Source: Maribacter caenipelagi
GTDB taxonomy: Bacteria > Bacteroidota > Bacteroidia > Flavobacteriales > Flavobacteriaceae
Assembly (NCBI RefSeq): GCF_004364175.1
Contig: NZ_SNZW01000017.1
Coordinates: 310,001-374,000, forward strand
Length of the DNA: 64,000 nucleotides
Direction: 5' to 3'
Below the pieces are notes generated by a model. It had not been told where the DNA came from. It was given only the letters and a program-made list of their open reading frames with translations, and searched no databases. Position numbers and translations under genes: made by a program. Below are positions 289 to 45,069 of this stretch, piece by piece (position 1 is the stretch's first letter; each line of letters begins with the position of its first letter).

Positions 289-1367
289 TTAGCAAAAATC
301 GCAATTATGGCTATTATGACAAGGATAAAAATCACTAAAAAGAAAATTTTCCAAAATGAATATGGTCTATTTCCACTTAGCACCCCTGTTTGCCCATTTA
401 TATAAAAATTGAATTCCTTACCATCATACCTATATGAACTTAAATAAATAGGAAGCAGAATATGTTTGAACTTTTCATTTGATAATTTTATATCGGCATT
501 TGCTATTCTTTGGGTATCACCACCAATATCTCGCCTTATCCAATTATAGGCAATATTCTTGGCTTCTTGAAACGATTTATGATGACCCTCTTTTAATGAA
601 ACCGTATATTTTTCGGTTACAAAGCCAGATAGATACTTCGAATTAAAAACCACTAAATCTTTCAAATTCCAAAAGGTGACTTTTGACGGAATCTCTTTTC
701 GCTTCTTTTCTGATGCACTTATTAGAATATCATCAACAAAACCTTCCACTTTTCCAGAAGCATAGGTCCACCTTGTTTTTCTTACCTGTCTGGTTCTCTT
801 TCCTTTATTACTATTGTAGGTTTGATTTTCATAATAATAGTCTCCTCGTTGCCCTTGGTACGATGCGAAAAGATTGGCATCGAAAGTCCAATACGGAAGA
901 TATAACCCATGCAAGCCTTCTGGATCCAATGCTGCCTTTTTTAAATTGTCTGGTGCAAACCAAATTTTATCTACCCAATTTTTAAATATGGCTTGTGCCT
1001 TTCTAGCATCTAACTGAAAAGGAACTAAAGCCCCTGGTAAGATCCACCCTTCTTTTTCAATATCTTCTCGAATTAAAGGCTCGCTACAATACACACAATT
1101 AAGCGATTTGTAGTTTTCTTCTACATGTTGGTTAGCTCCGCAATTTTTACAATGCAACAGCTCTATAGTCTCGGTATAGGCATTTTCACCAACAATTTTT
1201 AAGTAATGCTCTAATTCTAACTCTTCAAAGCTAGTTTTAGATTGCTCAATAAATTCTTCATAGCCACAGTACTCGCATATTAATTGATGTGAACCTGGCT
1301 TAAATTTTAGCTCGGCACCACAATTTGCACATGCTTTTTTATACTCCGATTGTTGAATATCGTCCAT
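285..1367 (-). CDS. Double zinc-ribbon membrane protein (TFIIB-type zinc ribbon, YdjG-like)
   Basis: A 360-residue protein with two N-terminal CxxC...CxxC zinc ribbons (C13/C16/C31/C34 and C73/C76/C91/C94), a long mixed middle region with a basic patch near residues 180-200, and one C-terminal transmembrane helix (about 340-358). It probably sits in the membrane with the ribbons in the cytoplasm. It lies 52 bp downstream of the SPFH gene. A similar pairing of a zinc-ribbon protein with an SPFH protein occurs in the Bacillus subtilis ydjG-ydjI locus, where the SPFH protein recruits PspA; that comparison is from memory and suggests a membrane-stress role. No enzymatic motif is visible. Confidence 0.7.
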   Translation of the reverse strand: MDDIQQSEYKKACANCGAELKFKPGSHQLICEYCGYEEFIEQSKTSFEELELEHYLKIVGENAYTETIELLHCKNCGANQHVEENYKSLNCVYCSEPLIREDIEKEGWILPGALVPFQLDARKAQAIFKNWVDKIWFAPDNLKKAALDPEGLHGLYLPYWTFDANLFASYQGQRGDYYYENQTYNSNKGKRTRQVRKTRWTYASGKVEGFVDDILISASEKKRKEIPSKVTFWNLKDLVVFNSKYLSGFVTEKYTVSLKEGHHKSFQEAKNIAYNWIRRDIGGDTQRIANADIKLSNEKFKHILLPIYLSSYRYDGKEFNFYINGQTGVLSGNRPYSFWKIFFLVIFILVIIAIIAIFAK

Positions 1368-1419
1368 AGAAAGTATCCCTTATCTTAGAAAGGTATGTTA
1401 GTATACGTATTGCTTAAGA

Positions 1420-5626: not shown

Positions 5627-6749
5627 CTTTTCTAAGAACACGAAGCGCTTCTTTAAGCGAAGCATTTATTCCTGGGTATTTTGGCTTTAAAATCTGCCTA
5701 GCATTTTCCATTTGTTCTTTGGCTTCTTCAAATCCGTTGAGAAAGCATATTAAATATGAATCTGCTAAATATTTCAATTGCCTAACTTCAGCAATACTCA
5801 ATCCGATATTTTTATTTGCCTTTGCCACCAAAATATTATTGCTTTTATATATCTTTTTTAGCTCGTCTTCATCATGTATTGGTGGATCAAAAAGTAAATC
5901 GCTCGTAATTTGGTAGGTGCCGTTTTCACTGAAATTTATAACCACCTTTTCTAAAGGATAGTACTTTTGCTTAGCTGCCAAACCTAGCTGCACATACTCA
6001 ATCGTGGTAAATGAATCATTGTTATACGTAATGGTAACCTCATCTAAATTAGAGTAGAATAGTTTTACCTGTTCGTTTATTAATTCAATATCGACCCGGT
6101 AGAAATATGTTTCTCCATTTACTACTTTTTTATTGCCTGCCCAGCAGACTACAAATTGTTCTTTAAAAACCTTGTAGTCACTTTCTAAATCTTTATGTCG
6201 ATGATTTAAAAAATCTATAACACCATCTAAAGTAAGCTCAATATTGTTTTTCGCATGCTGTTCGATAGTGGCGACAGCCTCAGAATTGCTATCTTTTAAT
6301 TCTATATCAAAAACTTTAGGCAAGCTTATACTACCTTCTCTAAAAAATACAGAACCTCCGTAATATTTCCATATGTTTTTTCTGAGCGAACAAATTTTAC
6401 CAATAGATTTTATAGTCACCAACCCCACAACTTTACCTTCTGGCAAATGTGGAAATGGAATGTTCTCGTAAGATATTAACGGGGGATTATCTAAATAGGC
6501 ATTCACCAAATTTTGAATCTTACTATCATCAAAAAAATCTACCCCTACAATTTTATTATCTTCATCTTCAACCCCTATAACTATAAAAGAATTATTTGAA
6601 GGATTACTGTTTGCCAAAGCACAAACATGCTTTAAAAACTTACCCTTGCCTTCTTTTTCTCCGATTGAAATAAATCGCTTTTTATCGTAAAAACTATTCT
6701 CGTCGTTATGAGCGAGTAAGTTTTTTACCAAAAGGCGTTTATTGATCAT
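5613..6749 (-). CDS. AlbA_2/Schlafen-type ATP-binding domain protein
   Basis: A 378-residue protein whose N-terminal 130 residues carry the AlbA_2 (Schlafen AAA_4-like) pattern: an E-GKGKFLKH segment, ALANS, and the hydrophobic IVIGVEDEDNKIVGVD strand-turn-strand. In this superfamily the domain binds nucleic acid or nucleotide and is often attached to a winged helix; here the C-terminal 240 residues are not recognisable as a helix-turn-helix and look like a Bacteroidota-specific extension. The role is unknown; regulator-like or defence-related functions are known for relatives, but nothing here proves either. The gene converges on, and overlaps by 14 bp, the amylosucrase gene. Confidence 0.65.
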   Translation of the reverse strand: MINKRLLVKNLLAHNDENSFYDKKRFISIGEKEGKGKFLKHVCALANSNPSNNSFIVIGVEDEDNKIVGVDFFDDSKIQNLVNAYLDNPPLISYENIPFPHLPEGKVVGLVTIKSIGKICSLRKNIWKYYGGSVFFREGSISLPKVFDIELKDSNSEAVATIEQHAKNNIELTLDGVIDFLNHRHKDLESDYKVFKEQFVVCWAGNKKVVNGETYFYRVDIELINEQVKLFYSNLDEVTITYNNDSFTTIEYVQLGLAAKQKYYPLEKVVINFSENGTYQITSDLLFDPPIHDEDELKKIYKSNNILVAKANKNIGLSIAEVRQLKYLADSYLICFLNGFEEAKEQMENARQILKPKYPGINASLKEALRVLRKVKYS

Positions 6750-42308: not shown

Positions 42309-44207
42309 ATGAGTGACGCAATTAAGCATGAGTGTGGTATTTCTGTAATACGATTGTTAAAACCTTTAGAGTATTACAAGGAAAAGTATGGAACAGCATT
42401 TTATGGTGTAAATAAAATGTATCTAATGATGGAAAAACAGCACAATCGCGGTCAAGATGGTGCAGGTTTTGCCAGTATTAAATTAGATGTAGAAGCCGGG
42501 GAACGTTATATGAGCCGTGTACGCTCGTGTCAGCAACAACCTATACAAGATATTTTTGCCCAAATCAACGACCGTATCAACTCTGAGCTAAAAGAGCATC
42601 CGGAGTATGAAGATGATGTGGCTTTACAAAAAAAGCACATACCGTATATAGGAGAATTACTTTTAGGACATGTACGTTATGGTACTTTTGGTAAAAACAG
42701 TATTGAAAGCGTTCACCCTTTCTTAAGACAGAACAATTGGATGCACCGTAACCTTATTGTTGCAGGTAACTTCAACATGACCAATGTTCACGAACTGTTC
42801 GATAACCTAATTCAACTAGGGCAACATCCAAAAGAAATGGCCGATACGGTTACCGTAATGGAAAAGATAGGTCATTTTCTAGATGATGCGGTTGCTAAAT
42901 TATACAAGCAGATTAAAAAAGAAGGATACACCAAACAAGAAGCTTCTCCACTTATTGCCAAACGTTTAAAGGTGTACAAGATATTAAGAAGGGCTGCCAA
43001 AAATTTTGATGGTGGTTATGCTATGGCCGGTTTATTAGGTCATGGCGATGCTTTTGTATTAAGAGATCCAAGTGGTATTAGACCTGCTTACTACTATAGA
43101 GATGATGAAGTTGTCGTAGTAGCATCAGAAAGACCGGCAATACAAACAGTATTCAATGTACCTTACGATGAAGTAAAAGAATTGGATCCGGGTGCAGCCA
43201 TCATTATTAAAAAGAATGGTTCAAGTGCCATTAAACAAATACTAGAACCTAAAGAGCGAAAGGCATGTTCTTTTGAACGTATCTATTTCTCTAGAGGTAG
43301 TGATAAAGAAATATATCAAGAGCGTAAAGCGTTAGGTAAGTTGGTGTTCCCTCAAATATTAGAATCAATTAACGAGGATATCAAGAACACCGTTTTCTCT
43401 TATATACCAAATACGGCAGAAACGTCATTCTACGGTATGGTAAAAGAAGCTCAAAACTACCTGAACAAGAAAAAAGAAGAACAAATACTAGCTTTAGGAA
43501 CAGGTATTACAGGCGAACAATTACATGAGATATTAGATGTACGCCCTAGAATCGAGAAAGTCGCTATTAAAGATGCAAAGCTTAGAACTTTCATTACCCA
43601 AGATAGTAGTAGAGATGATCTTGTAGCGCACGTATATGACATTTCTTATGGCTCTGTAAAAGAAGGTGACAATCTTGTTATTATAGACGACAGTATTGTT
43701 CGTGGTACAACACTCAAGAAAAGTATTCTAAGAATTCTGGACAGATTATCACCCAAGAAAATTATAGTGGTATCATCTGCACCGCAAATCAGATACCCAG
43801 ATTGTTACGGTATCGATATGGCAAAATTAGAAGACTTTATAGCTTTCAAAGCTGCCTTGGCTTTACATGAAGACAACAACTCTATGCATATCGTAGAAGA
43901 TATTTACAAAAAATGCTTAACACAGGTTGAGAGTCATGATAACGACGTAATTAATTACGTTAAAGAATTCTACGCTCCGTTTACCGCAAAAGAGATCTCC
44001 AAAAAAACCGGAGAACTACTTAGTCCTGATGGAATAAAAGCCGAAGTTTCTATTATCTACCAAACAATTGAAAGTCTACATGAGGCTTGCCCTAAAAACT
44101 TGGGGGATTGGTATTTTACCGGTAACTACCCAACACCAGGCGGAAACAGAGTGGTAAATAGGGCTTTCATAAACTTCTATGAAGGCAATAATGAACGCGC
44201 ATATTAG
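42309..44207 (+). CDS. PurF-like amidophosphoribosyltransferase, long form
   Basis: A 632-residue protein with an N-terminal class II glutamine amidotransferase domain and a C-terminal phosphoribosyltransferase domain with the PRPP loop VIIDDSIVRGTT. The nucleophile Cys is C9 (HECGIS), so eight residues must be removed for it to become the N-terminus; ordinary PurF often starts MCG. The protein is about 120 residues longer than classical PurF, with inserts in the glutaminase domain (about 60-105) and extra C-terminal sequence. It probably makes phosphoribosylamine for purines, but a second role is possible because flavobacteria usually have another, canonical PurF. Confidence 0.8.
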   Translation: MSDAIKHECGISVIRLLKPLEYYKEKYGTAFYGVNKMYLMMEKQHNRGQDGAGFASIKLDVEAGERYMSRVRSCQQQPIQDIFAQINDRINSELKEHPEYEDDVALQKKHIPYIGELLLGHVRYGTFGKNSIESVHPFLRQNNWMHRNLIVAGNFNMTNVHELFDNLIQLGQHPKEMADTVTVMEKIGHFLDDAVAKLYKQIKKEGYTKQEASPLIAKRLKVYKILRRAAKNFDGGYAMAGLLGHGDAFVLRDPSGIRPAYYYRDDEVVVVASERPAIQTVFNVPYDEVKELDPGAAIIIKKNGSSAIKQILEPKERKACSFERIYFSRGSDKEIYQERKALGKLVFPQILESINEDIKNTVFSYIPNTAETSFYGMVKEAQNYLNKKKEEQILALGTGITGEQLHEILDVRPRIEKVAIKDAKLRTFITQDSSRDDLVAHVYDISYGSVKEGDNLVIIDDSIVRGTTLKKSILRILDRLSPKKIIVVSSAPQIRYPDCYGIDMAKLEDFIAFKAALALHEDNNSMHIVEDIYKKCLTQVESHDNDVINYVKEFYAPFTAKEISKKTGELLSPDGIKAEVSIIYQTIESLHEACPKNLGDWYFTGNYPTPGGNRVVNRAFINFYEGNNERAY

Positions 44208-44210
44208 ATA

Positions 44211-44255
44211 ATTCATCGATGAAATACACTCATTTTATGTATTTCATCGATGAAT
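44211..44255. repeat. 18-bp perfect inverted repeat built from two TTCATCGATGAA palindromes
   Basis: Left arm ATTCATCGATGAAATACA (44211-44228) and right arm TGTATTTCATCGATGAAT (44238-44255) pair perfectly around a 9-base loop, directly after the stop of the amidotransferase gene. Each arm also contains the 12-bp palindrome TTCATCGATGAA (44212-44223 and 44243-44254), and their centres are 31 bp apart, about three helical turns. It may be a terminator hairpin, although no T-run follows, or a double protein-binding site. Confidence 0.75.
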
Positions 44256-44313
44256 ACAGTATTTTAACGACTGAATAGTCGATTTGACTTAACCAGCTTT
44301 ACATTTAAAGCTA

Positions 44314-44384
44314 CCATAGCATAAGTAGGTTAAGTTCATGGTAAGATTTGGGGCAAAAAAGGTGGAGTTTACTCCGCCTTTTTT
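44314..44384 (+). ncRNA. Tandem small RNA, copy 1 of 4
   Basis: A 40-base domain (44314-44353), beginning CCATAGCATAAGTAGGTTAA and ending TTTGGGG, is followed by A/C-rich linker and an intrinsic terminator, arms GGTGGAGT (44361-44368) and ACTCCGCC (44371-44378), then T6. The ends CCAT and ATGG of the first 28 bases can pair, leaving a 20-base loop. A -7-like TACATTTA lies at 44300-44307, so the transcript would start about at the conserved domain. No protein is encoded consistently across the copies. Confidence 0.75.
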
Positions 44385-44508
44385 ATTTGCCAATTTTACT
44401 CTCTGTAAAGTTGTAATCCGTTTCTTCACAAAGCTCCCTTTGACGTTATTACGAGACGTTCAACCAATACCTTTTCCTGTTGTTAATAAGCCGATTACAT
44501 TTACAGAA

Positions 44509-44577
44509 CCATAGCATAAGTAGGTTAAGTTCATGGTAAGATTTGGGGAAAAGGACGGAGCGATGCTCCGTCTTTTT
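44509..44577 (+). ncRNA. Tandem small RNA, copy 2 of 4
   Basis: The 40-base domain (44509-44548) is identical to that of copy 1. The terminator stem differs: GACGGAGC (44554-44561) and GCTCCGTC (44565-44572) around GAT, then T5. The -7-like TACATTTA is at 44496-44503, 13 bases before the domain, with CTTTTC (44471-44476) 19 bases further upstream as a weak -33 candidate. Expected length is about 69 nt. Confidence 0.75.
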
Positions 44578-44710
44578 ATTTTACAGCCATTTTTAACTTC
44601 ATCATCTCACAACAACTTTCGAAATTTTTAATTCTAGCAGTACAACCTAAGTTTGTGACGTACAACGAATAGCTTTTTATAATACCCTCTTTGCTTATAC
44701 ATTTACTGAA

Positions 44711-44778
44711 CCATAGCATAAGTAGGTTAAGTTCATGGTAAGATTTGGGGAAAAGACGGAGCAATGCTCCGTCTTTTT
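44711..44778 (+). ncRNA. Tandem small RNA, copy 3 of 4
   Basis: The 40-base domain (44711-44750) is identical to copies 1 and 2. Terminator arms GACGGAGC (44755-44762) and GCTCCGTC (44766-44773) around AAT, then T5. The -7-like TACATTTA is at 44698-44705, again 13 bases upstream, and CTTTTT (44673-44678) is 19 bases before it, matching the layout of copy 2. Confidence 0.75.
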
Positions 44779-44917
44779 ATTTTATACCAATTGGCTTATA
44801 AAACAACTAGTTACCCTTTGTAACCTACCCCTAGAAAAACATCTCTACCAAAATAAAAGTTTATTTTTTTCTTAAAAATCCTTTTTTTATTTACTCAATA
44901 CCAGTAATTTAGTATCG

Positions 44918-44988
44918 CCATAGCATAAGTAGGTTAAGTTTATGGTAAGATTTGGGACGAAAAGGGTGGAGACTTCTCCGCCCTTTTC
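44918..44988 (+). ncRNA. Tandem small RNA, copy 4 of 4 (diverged)
   Basis: The 40-base domain (44918-44957) has two changes: AAGTTTATGG instead of AAGTTCATGG, which turns an A-C mismatch at the base of the hairpin into an A-T pair, and a final A instead of G. The terminator is GGGTGGAGA (44964-44972) and TCTCCGCCC (44975-44983), then TTTT. The -7-like element is TAATTTAG (44905-44912), at the same 13-base distance. Confidence 0.7.
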
Positions 44989-45069
44989 TATTTTAAAACC
45001 AAAAAAACCACCTATGAATAATTCATAAGTGGTTTCCTACAATATAGTTAAGAATATTTCTGCTCTTTC

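Follow-up and report, generated by a model that had tools for sequence, protein, structure and literature searches.

Four tandem copies of a 40-base domain, placed between purF and the superoxide dismutase gene sod of Maribacter caenipelagi, raise the question of what they encode and on what their product might act. We addressed this in the window, that is, the whole stretch of 64,000 nucleotides analysed here (positions 310,001 to 374,000 of contig NZ_SNZW01000017.1), in the genome to which it belongs, and in related genomes. A sequence-only reading had proposed four copies of an uncharacterised small RNA (sRNA) gene, and we report below how this proposal fared.

The array and its RNA family

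A repeat search, together with reading of the sequence, placed the domains at 44314, 44509, 44711, and 44918, with the spacings of 195, 202, and 207 bp given by the sequence-only reading. As it had also stated, the 40 bases are the same in copies 1 to 3 and copy 4 differs at two of them, while a -7-like box (TACATTTA for copies 1 to 3, TAATTTAG for copy 4) stands 13 to 14 bases 5' of each domain and a terminator follows it. Outside these parts the four copies show little alignment, and the spacers, said to lack similarity, indeed could not be aligned. The 12-base core AAGTAGGTTAAG was found exactly four times in the 4.28-Mb genome, every time in the array. The features of the locus are the following.

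42309..44207, + strand: purF, conserved upstream neighbour
44211..44255, no strand: 18-bp perfect inverted repeat after the purF stop (arms 44211-44228 and 44238-44255)
44242..44270, + strand: tandem operator TTTCATCGAT / TTTTAACGA, 20 bp start to start, upstream of copy 1
44300..44307, + strand: -7 box TACATTTA of copy 1; predicted start 44312-44313
44314..44384, + strand: sRNA copy 1; 40-nt domain 44314-44353, terminator to 44384
44459..44469, + strand: upstream element of copy 2, TTCAACCAATA, one mismatch to TTnRnCyAAAA
44496..44503, + strand: -7 box TACATTTA of copy 2
44509..44577, + strand: sRNA copy 2
44698..44705, + strand: -7 box TACATTTA of copy 3
44711..44778, + strand: sRNA copy 3
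44886..44912, + strand: promoter region specific to the last-copy subfamily (window form ...TTTACTCAATACCAGTAATTTAG), with -7 box TAATTTAG at 44905-44912
44918..44987, + strand: sRNA copy 4, last-copy subtype, tail GGGACGAAAA
45070..45678, - strand: superoxide dismutase gene (sod), conserved convergent downstream neighbour

In the predicted fold of every copy, the 5' hairpin is weak and the terminator strong (z of -3.6 to -4.5), with the tail (GUAAGAUUUGGGG) single-stranded between them; according to the structure ensemble, both this tail and the loop of the hairpin should be accessible. In Flavobacterium psychrophilum, the -7 box is described at -12 to -5 relative to the start (PMC9723704). 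The same distance makes the purine just 5' of CCAU the predicted start, and 291 of 297 copies have A or G there. We infer that the sRNA genes of the window, each of ~70 nt, are transcribed; since the next gene, sod, is convergent, the array is not a leader.

Two structural arguments of the sequence-only reading turned out to be weaker. Terminator stems that vary and yet keep pairing had been taken as a sign of selection on RNA structure, but such stems are expected of any intrinsic terminator. As for the C-to-U change thought to repair the 5' hairpin of copy 4, family members vary at this site, with C in 213, T in 81, and A in 3 of 297 copies, and the base behaves as a bulge in the fold.

A homology search in other flavobacterial genomes, which had been suggested, detected the core in 161 of 199 sampled Flavobacteriaceae genomes when three mismatches were allowed, and the reversed control pattern in 2. 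A covariance model of 47 positions matched 40 of 50 Flavobacteriaceae genomes and none of ~246 other Flavobacteriales sampled, in a search whose filters lose weak matches; a sample of 295 drawn from the whole class gave just four scores outside the family, all of them weak (E of 3e-4 to 9e-3). We fetched 152 loci, some of which overlap or share a genome. Of these, 135 are preceded by purF on the strand of the array and 125 are followed by sod on the other strand, and neither gene was found in any other orientation around the array. Arrays hold 1 to 6 copies per locus. The purF gene is 94 to 98% identical in four loci (L040, L064, L107, and L118), the nearest named relatives being Maribacter. 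Five loci (L022, L037, L046, L072, and L099) carry sRNA copies with neither purF nor sod in the fetched stretch and may be ectopic or rearranged. Eighteen RNA-lacking genomes were searched for remnants near purF; one gave no purF, and the other 17 held no significant model match (best E 0.16). By eye, one of these 17, L228, keeps a decayed domain copy at the usual locus (~1340-1400, reverse strand), and L071 has a changed copy there (6674-6720, reverse strand).

The loop and the tail are nearly invariant in 297 unique copies, partly by construction because most loci came from an exact-core scan; the three-mismatch core scan and the covariance model search are less biased. In a wider set of 90 matches that includes divergent Flavobacterium-like copies, the loop AGUAGG and AUUUGGGG are kept with few exceptions, surrounded by small indels. 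Pairing holds in 96% of the cells of the 5' stem, and just three cells changed on both sides. Support for the 5' hairpin thus lies mainly in near-invariance, and structural covariation does not carry the case. The real loop is probably larger than in the minimum-energy fold, since an inner pair fails to form in 13 of 66 rows. A one-base difference between GUAAGAUUUGGGG and GUAGAUUUGGGG (135 versus 113 copies) rules out a conserved reading frame, and the RNA is therefore non-coding.

The proposed comparison with Rfam gave no match. At the gathering cut-off, Rfam 15, Flavo-1 and 6S-flavo included, had 0 matches in the window and 0 in five related loci, and a permissive scan of 44200-45050 reached at best 28.5 bits against a cut-off of 45. 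The proposal of an uncharacterised sRNA family with its own promoters and terminators is therefore supported by the family-wide conservation, the convergent downstream gene, the non-coding nature of the RNA, and the lack of an Rfam match, and the family would be a trans-acting one.

A small ORF as predicted conserved target

The loop had been suggested as a seed for targets. This idea gained support, with the addition that the 3' tail GAUUUGGGG is also antisense to translation starts and that, in many targets, most of the 40-nt domain is. In the seed search itself the loop 11-mer was not enriched in genomes, the control being higher, and it was the tail 11-mer TAGATTTGGGG that led to a target. 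It gave 147 matches in 50 family genomes versus 39 for the reversed pattern, an excess part of which codon usage could explain. Sorting by hand left 96 of the 147 outside arrays, and 71 stretches around such matches, covering part of the 96, were fetched. Twelve of the 71 represent one and the same place, the gap downstream of a gene that we take from its sequence to be scoB (3-oxoacid CoA-transferase B). The sites there are antisense to most of the sRNA and sometimes recur every 40 bases. At 11 of the 12 loci, a small ORF of 41 to 42 aa with the consensus MNxAxNLPxPT...LTKKxFML has its start codon flanked by these sites; in L246 this ORF is frameshifted. Matches in three further loci were rejected as target sites, as they belong to a different repeated palindrome: an element starting with CCCCAAATCTACCATAACTTACC (L298 ~1511, L300 ~1485, and L301 ~1510) occurs more than once in one genome and resembles a separate family of repeats.

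Four of the small proteins were compared with Pfam and NCBIfam, and none had an accepted match; a Tsi6 score stayed below the cut-off (E 0.16). A profile of the protein found it in 100 of 199 family genomes at E <= 0.05, where about ten matches are expected by chance. The profile is blind to the leader, which thus provides an independent test of the target. We took the best 30 profile loci, 29 of which could be parsed; L343, where the end of the ORF was off pattern, was left out (its leader site is weak, at -17.6, and its early codons strong, at -31.6). In the 29 targets, the 60 bases 5' of the AUG paired with the sRNA at an average of -32.0 kcal/mol (range, -38.5 to -23.3). Nine of these targets are discovery loci; without them, the average over the remaining 20 is -31.9 and the range is unchanged. 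As controls, 315 gene starts of the window's own genome averaged -12.1 with a best of -20.5 (-21.8 with that genome's own sRNA subtype), 35 other genes in the target loci reached -20.1, 580 shuffled leaders reached -27.1, and the best of 100 shuffled sRNAs averaged -19.6. Pairing extends into the AUG in 27 of the 29 targets. Furthermore, all 29 messages have at least two separate sites between -150 and +60 (20 have two, 5 three, 3 four, and 1 five), while 3 of 145 shuffles have any site in that region. In 20 further small-gene stretches the start could be set by eye in 18, all of them diverged small genes; with the better of two sRNA subtypes, 14 of these 18 paired below every gene-start control, and the 4 others fell inside the control range.

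The small ORF looks coding and under purifying selection, with pS of 0.69, pN of 0.22, and a median dN/dS of 0.22 over the last 28 codons, as calculated from the 222 of 406 pairs with usable dS, synonymous sites being near saturation. At E <= 1e-4 it was detected in 76 of 161 RNA-bearing genomes versus 1 of 38 RNA-lacking ones (p 2e-8), the sole RNA-lacking genome with the ORF being 84% complete; it was not detected at this threshold in 85 of the 161, the window's own genome included. This co-occurrence is an association whose counts are not independent, because the genera are related. Taken at the level of sequence, the new finding shown by these data is that a conserved ORF of ~42 aa has, in many relatives, a translation start to which the RNA is antisense.

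Beside an ABC transporter gene in two loci, both on the reverse strand (L254 ~1470-1540 and L309 ~1490-1560), we observed a unit of ~85 nt with its own -7 box and terminator. Its CTACTTATGTT and CCCCAAATCTA segments are antisense to the sRNA and match loop and tail in opposite order, so that the unit could bind two sRNAs. It is a candidate sponge RNA.

Own-genome leaders and a shared promoter element

In the window's own genome, the target gene was not found on contig C6, and scoB was then located on C1. The small ORF's pairing site is mostly lost here: the ortholog downstream of scoB (MNSQINQTANEHKIQVYRNDFFSGFLRLTKKLFML) pairs at just -18.6, inside the control range. The gene after this ORF encodes a lipoprotein and has the leader CCCAAATC...AAACTTAACCTGAAATG (-27.9), and its relative in another genus (L365) has CCCAAATC...AAACTTAACCTACAATG (-34.9). 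Pairing was also found at the start of a C5 lipoprotein gene (ACCTACTTATG, -26.5), a C5 gene for a 148-aa protein (CCCCAAA...ACTTAACCTATTAATG, -30.2), and a C6 gene for a protein resembling the tail of type IX secretion system (T9SS) substrates (-32.5). The best windows of C6 outside the array reached -34.2 among 16,430 windows with a mean of -17.0.

A scan for CCCAAATC...AACCTACTTATG-type leaders covered 1.21 Mb of this one genome. Two versions of the bipartite motif were tried, and each preceded 4 of the 1022 gene starts, as opposed to 0 for the reversed or complemented forms. Ranked against their permutations, CCCAAATC came first (tied) of 280, AACCTAC 32nd of 140, and ACTTAACC 20th of 560. 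Pairing below -30 was seen at 4 of the 1022 starts, versus a mean of 0.6 and a maximum of 3 for 40 decoys; below -28, -26, and -24 the counts were 4, 11, and 28, versus decoy maxima of 5, 14, and 28. Because some decoy matches or exceeds the counts at these last three thresholds, and because two of the four best starts (L407 and L406) lack the leader design, the own-genome targets are suggestive only; they would be secreted or lipoprotein genes preceded by similar leaders (CCCAAATC...AACCT[ACTT]ATG). Another small protein, of 78 aa in the own genome (L410 ~10983) and with copies 47 to 50% identical in L297 (~1460), has CCCCAAATCTA or CCCAAATC...AACCTAC just 5' of its start in both loci and might be a further conserved target.

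Upstream of the -7 box, at a fixed distance across copies, lies the element TTnRnCyAAAA. In first copies, two TGCATTTCATCGA-like units are directly repeated 20 to 21 bp apart and this element is the proximal one; the same pair is present in the promoters of the small-protein genes. A strict form of this tandem pattern matched 21 of 140 first copies (shuffles, 1 of 2800) and 6 of 29 targets (shuffles, 0 of 580), and 39 of 296 copies overall (shuffles, 2 of 5920); most copies do not fit the strict form. The window has its pair at 44242/44262, 5' of copy 1, and this operator is the same module as in the target-gene promoters of other genera. The inverted repeat that precedes copy 1 contains TTCATCGATGAA twice, the second being the distal half of the operator. 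Two further tandem pairs lie on contig C6 (411,860 bases, overlaps counted), one of them before two T9SS-tail-like genes, and the C1 and C5 stretches contain three, one of which precedes the C5 lipoprotein gene. In L384 (7930-8852; ~126.8-127.7 kb of the own contig C6), tandem TGCATTTCATCGATC repeats stand before two secreted proteins of ~107 to 112 aa that, by eye, look like little more than a T9SS C-terminal domain; the start of the second gene offers a site for pairing with the sRNA.

The tandem element probably serves as binding site for one regulator common to the sRNA genes and the target, possibly of the LytTR type. A search of the own genome for the upstream element plus the -7 box gave 48 matches versus 38 for the control and revealed no regulon. 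The promoter region of the last copy is of another, strongly conserved kind, with CACAATACCAGTAATTTAG in the consensus of 42 copies, and this copy may thus answer to another signal.

Mode of action, alternatives, and known systems

We consider it likely that the array encodes a multicopy, trans-acting, base-pairing sRNA of ~70 nt that blocks translation initiation of the small-protein message. Upon transcription, the loop (GUAGG) and the tail GAUUUGGGG would nucleate pairing, the weak 5' hairpin would open, and the duplex would cover the AUG, so that translation would be stopped and/or the mRNA exposed to decay. One or more sRNAs could lie side by side across the leader and the first codons, and the several copies would supply dose, the last one from its own promoter. 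Repression by the sRNA is the assumed direction of regulation. Since a shared regulator is inferred for both, the sRNA might trim or delay a co-induced target in a feed-forward manner.

Hfq (PF17209) was absent from 41 of 41 family genomes tested, with 5 of 14 control genomes positive, and RRM_1 (PF00076) from 37 of 41, including the window's own; two of the four genomes with RRM_1 are among the 23 RNA-bearing ones. The sRNA would hence act without those two chaperones, for which long complementarity and gene dose may compensate. More tentatively, the parts could form one family-wide module, Hfq-free and mostly RRM-free, in which an almost invariant multicopy sRNA, messages with two to five sites arranged head-to-tail over the start codon of the micro-protein, a common tandem operator, and, in some genera, dedicated sponge RNAs act together.

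A small ORF with an antisense RNA over its start also recalls a type I toxin-antitoxin pair, in which the array would be the trans-encoded antitoxin of a harmful amphipathic peptide of ~42 aa. The ORF is almost absent where the RNA is absent, and the C-terminal half of the peptide is amphipathic (hydrophobic moment of 0.45 to 0.60 in 8 sequences). Nevertheless, we regard this as unlikely: the chromosomal positions beside scoB and purF/sod are fixed in many genera, the own genome retains the RNA where the peptide's site is lost, other predicted targets exist, and the promoter element is common to the RNA and peptide genes. Trans-encoded type I antitoxins such as OrzO (PMC3919570) are likewise antisense to a small-protein mRNA; unlike them, our RNA forms a family-wide fixed array with further predicted targets.

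Just as improbable, in our view, is that the tandem antisense leaders serve mainly as sponges controlling the sRNA and that the small ORF is secondary. Two to five sites per message, and the separate ~85-nt units with their own -7 box and terminator in two genera (L254 and L309), would suit such a role, which however does not account for sites that fall on the AUG and early codons or for purifying selection on the ORF. A protein-titrating RNA of the CsrB/6S kind, whose invariant loop and tail would bind a protein and whose copies would add sites, is very improbable. It would explain why the sequence itself, beyond pairing, is nearly invariant, why there is little covariation, and why there are several copies, but it leaves the extended antisense in the target leaders unexplained, and the two RNA-binding proteins considered, Hfq and RRM_1, are missing from all and from most of the genomes, respectively. 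Inert repeats or cis elements (attenuators, mobile repeats) can practically be dismissed despite the tandem repetition, given the convergent downstream gene, the same locus throughout the family, and promoters and terminators retained while the spacers drift.

The preferred reading, a base-pairing sRNA acting on translation starts, places the RNA near known multicopy sRNAs. For the class of Hfq-dependent sRNAs, which presupposes an encoded Hfq, the relevant domain was found in 0 of 41 genomes. What defines the LhrC/Qrr kind is present by sequence: several near-identical copies, each with its own promoter and terminator, and, in other genera, beyond-chance complementarity to conserved mRNA starts, that of the own genome being suggestive only. 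LhrC1-5 of Listeria are near-identical multicopy sRNAs, each with its own promoter, that pair with a translation start and whose conserved upstream nucleotides are required for induction by the regulator (PMC4132741). Our RNA shares with them the copies, the promoter per copy, the conserved upstream element, and the (here predicted) pairing with a translation start; it differs in its unrelated sequence, its target, and the lack of the Hfq with which LhrC was found. Leaders with several antisense units, as present here, are not mentioned for LhrC in the parts of that source consulted.

FopS/GibS of Bacteroides (RF04319) is a paralogous sRNA family from the same phylum that represses translation of surface proteins (PMC11697453). 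Unlike the present paralogs, its members are described as lying at many loci, with a single-stranded 5' seed and RbpB as partner (PMC11697453). Membership was rejected: the FopS model scored our RNA at chance level (19.0 bits versus a cut-off of 56, E 3.2), and an RRM_1 protein is absent from the window's genome. The Rfp sRNAs of F. psychrophilum are, like ours, flavobacterial sRNAs with predicted mRNA pairing, and deletion of Rfp18 lowers two protease mRNAs (PMC9723704). Rfp18 has at least three stem-loops, as opposed to two here, and other predicted targets; this distinction follows the published description, and our RNA may still correspond to one of the Rfp sRNAs. In the literature passages searched, we found no description of the present sRNA or module, and one experimentally tested sRNA in Flavobacteriaceae, Rfp18.

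The Flavobacteriaceae are important marine and freshwater bacteria. Here a conserved RNA and its predicted, likewise conserved target have a promoter element in common, and Hfq is missing; the system makes sRNA control without Hfq directly testable in this family, and it points to a family of ~42-aa proteins missing from Pfam and NCBIfam. If the proposed module is true, multi-site, dose-sensitive sRNA control of such a layout would be a new architecture in bacteria.
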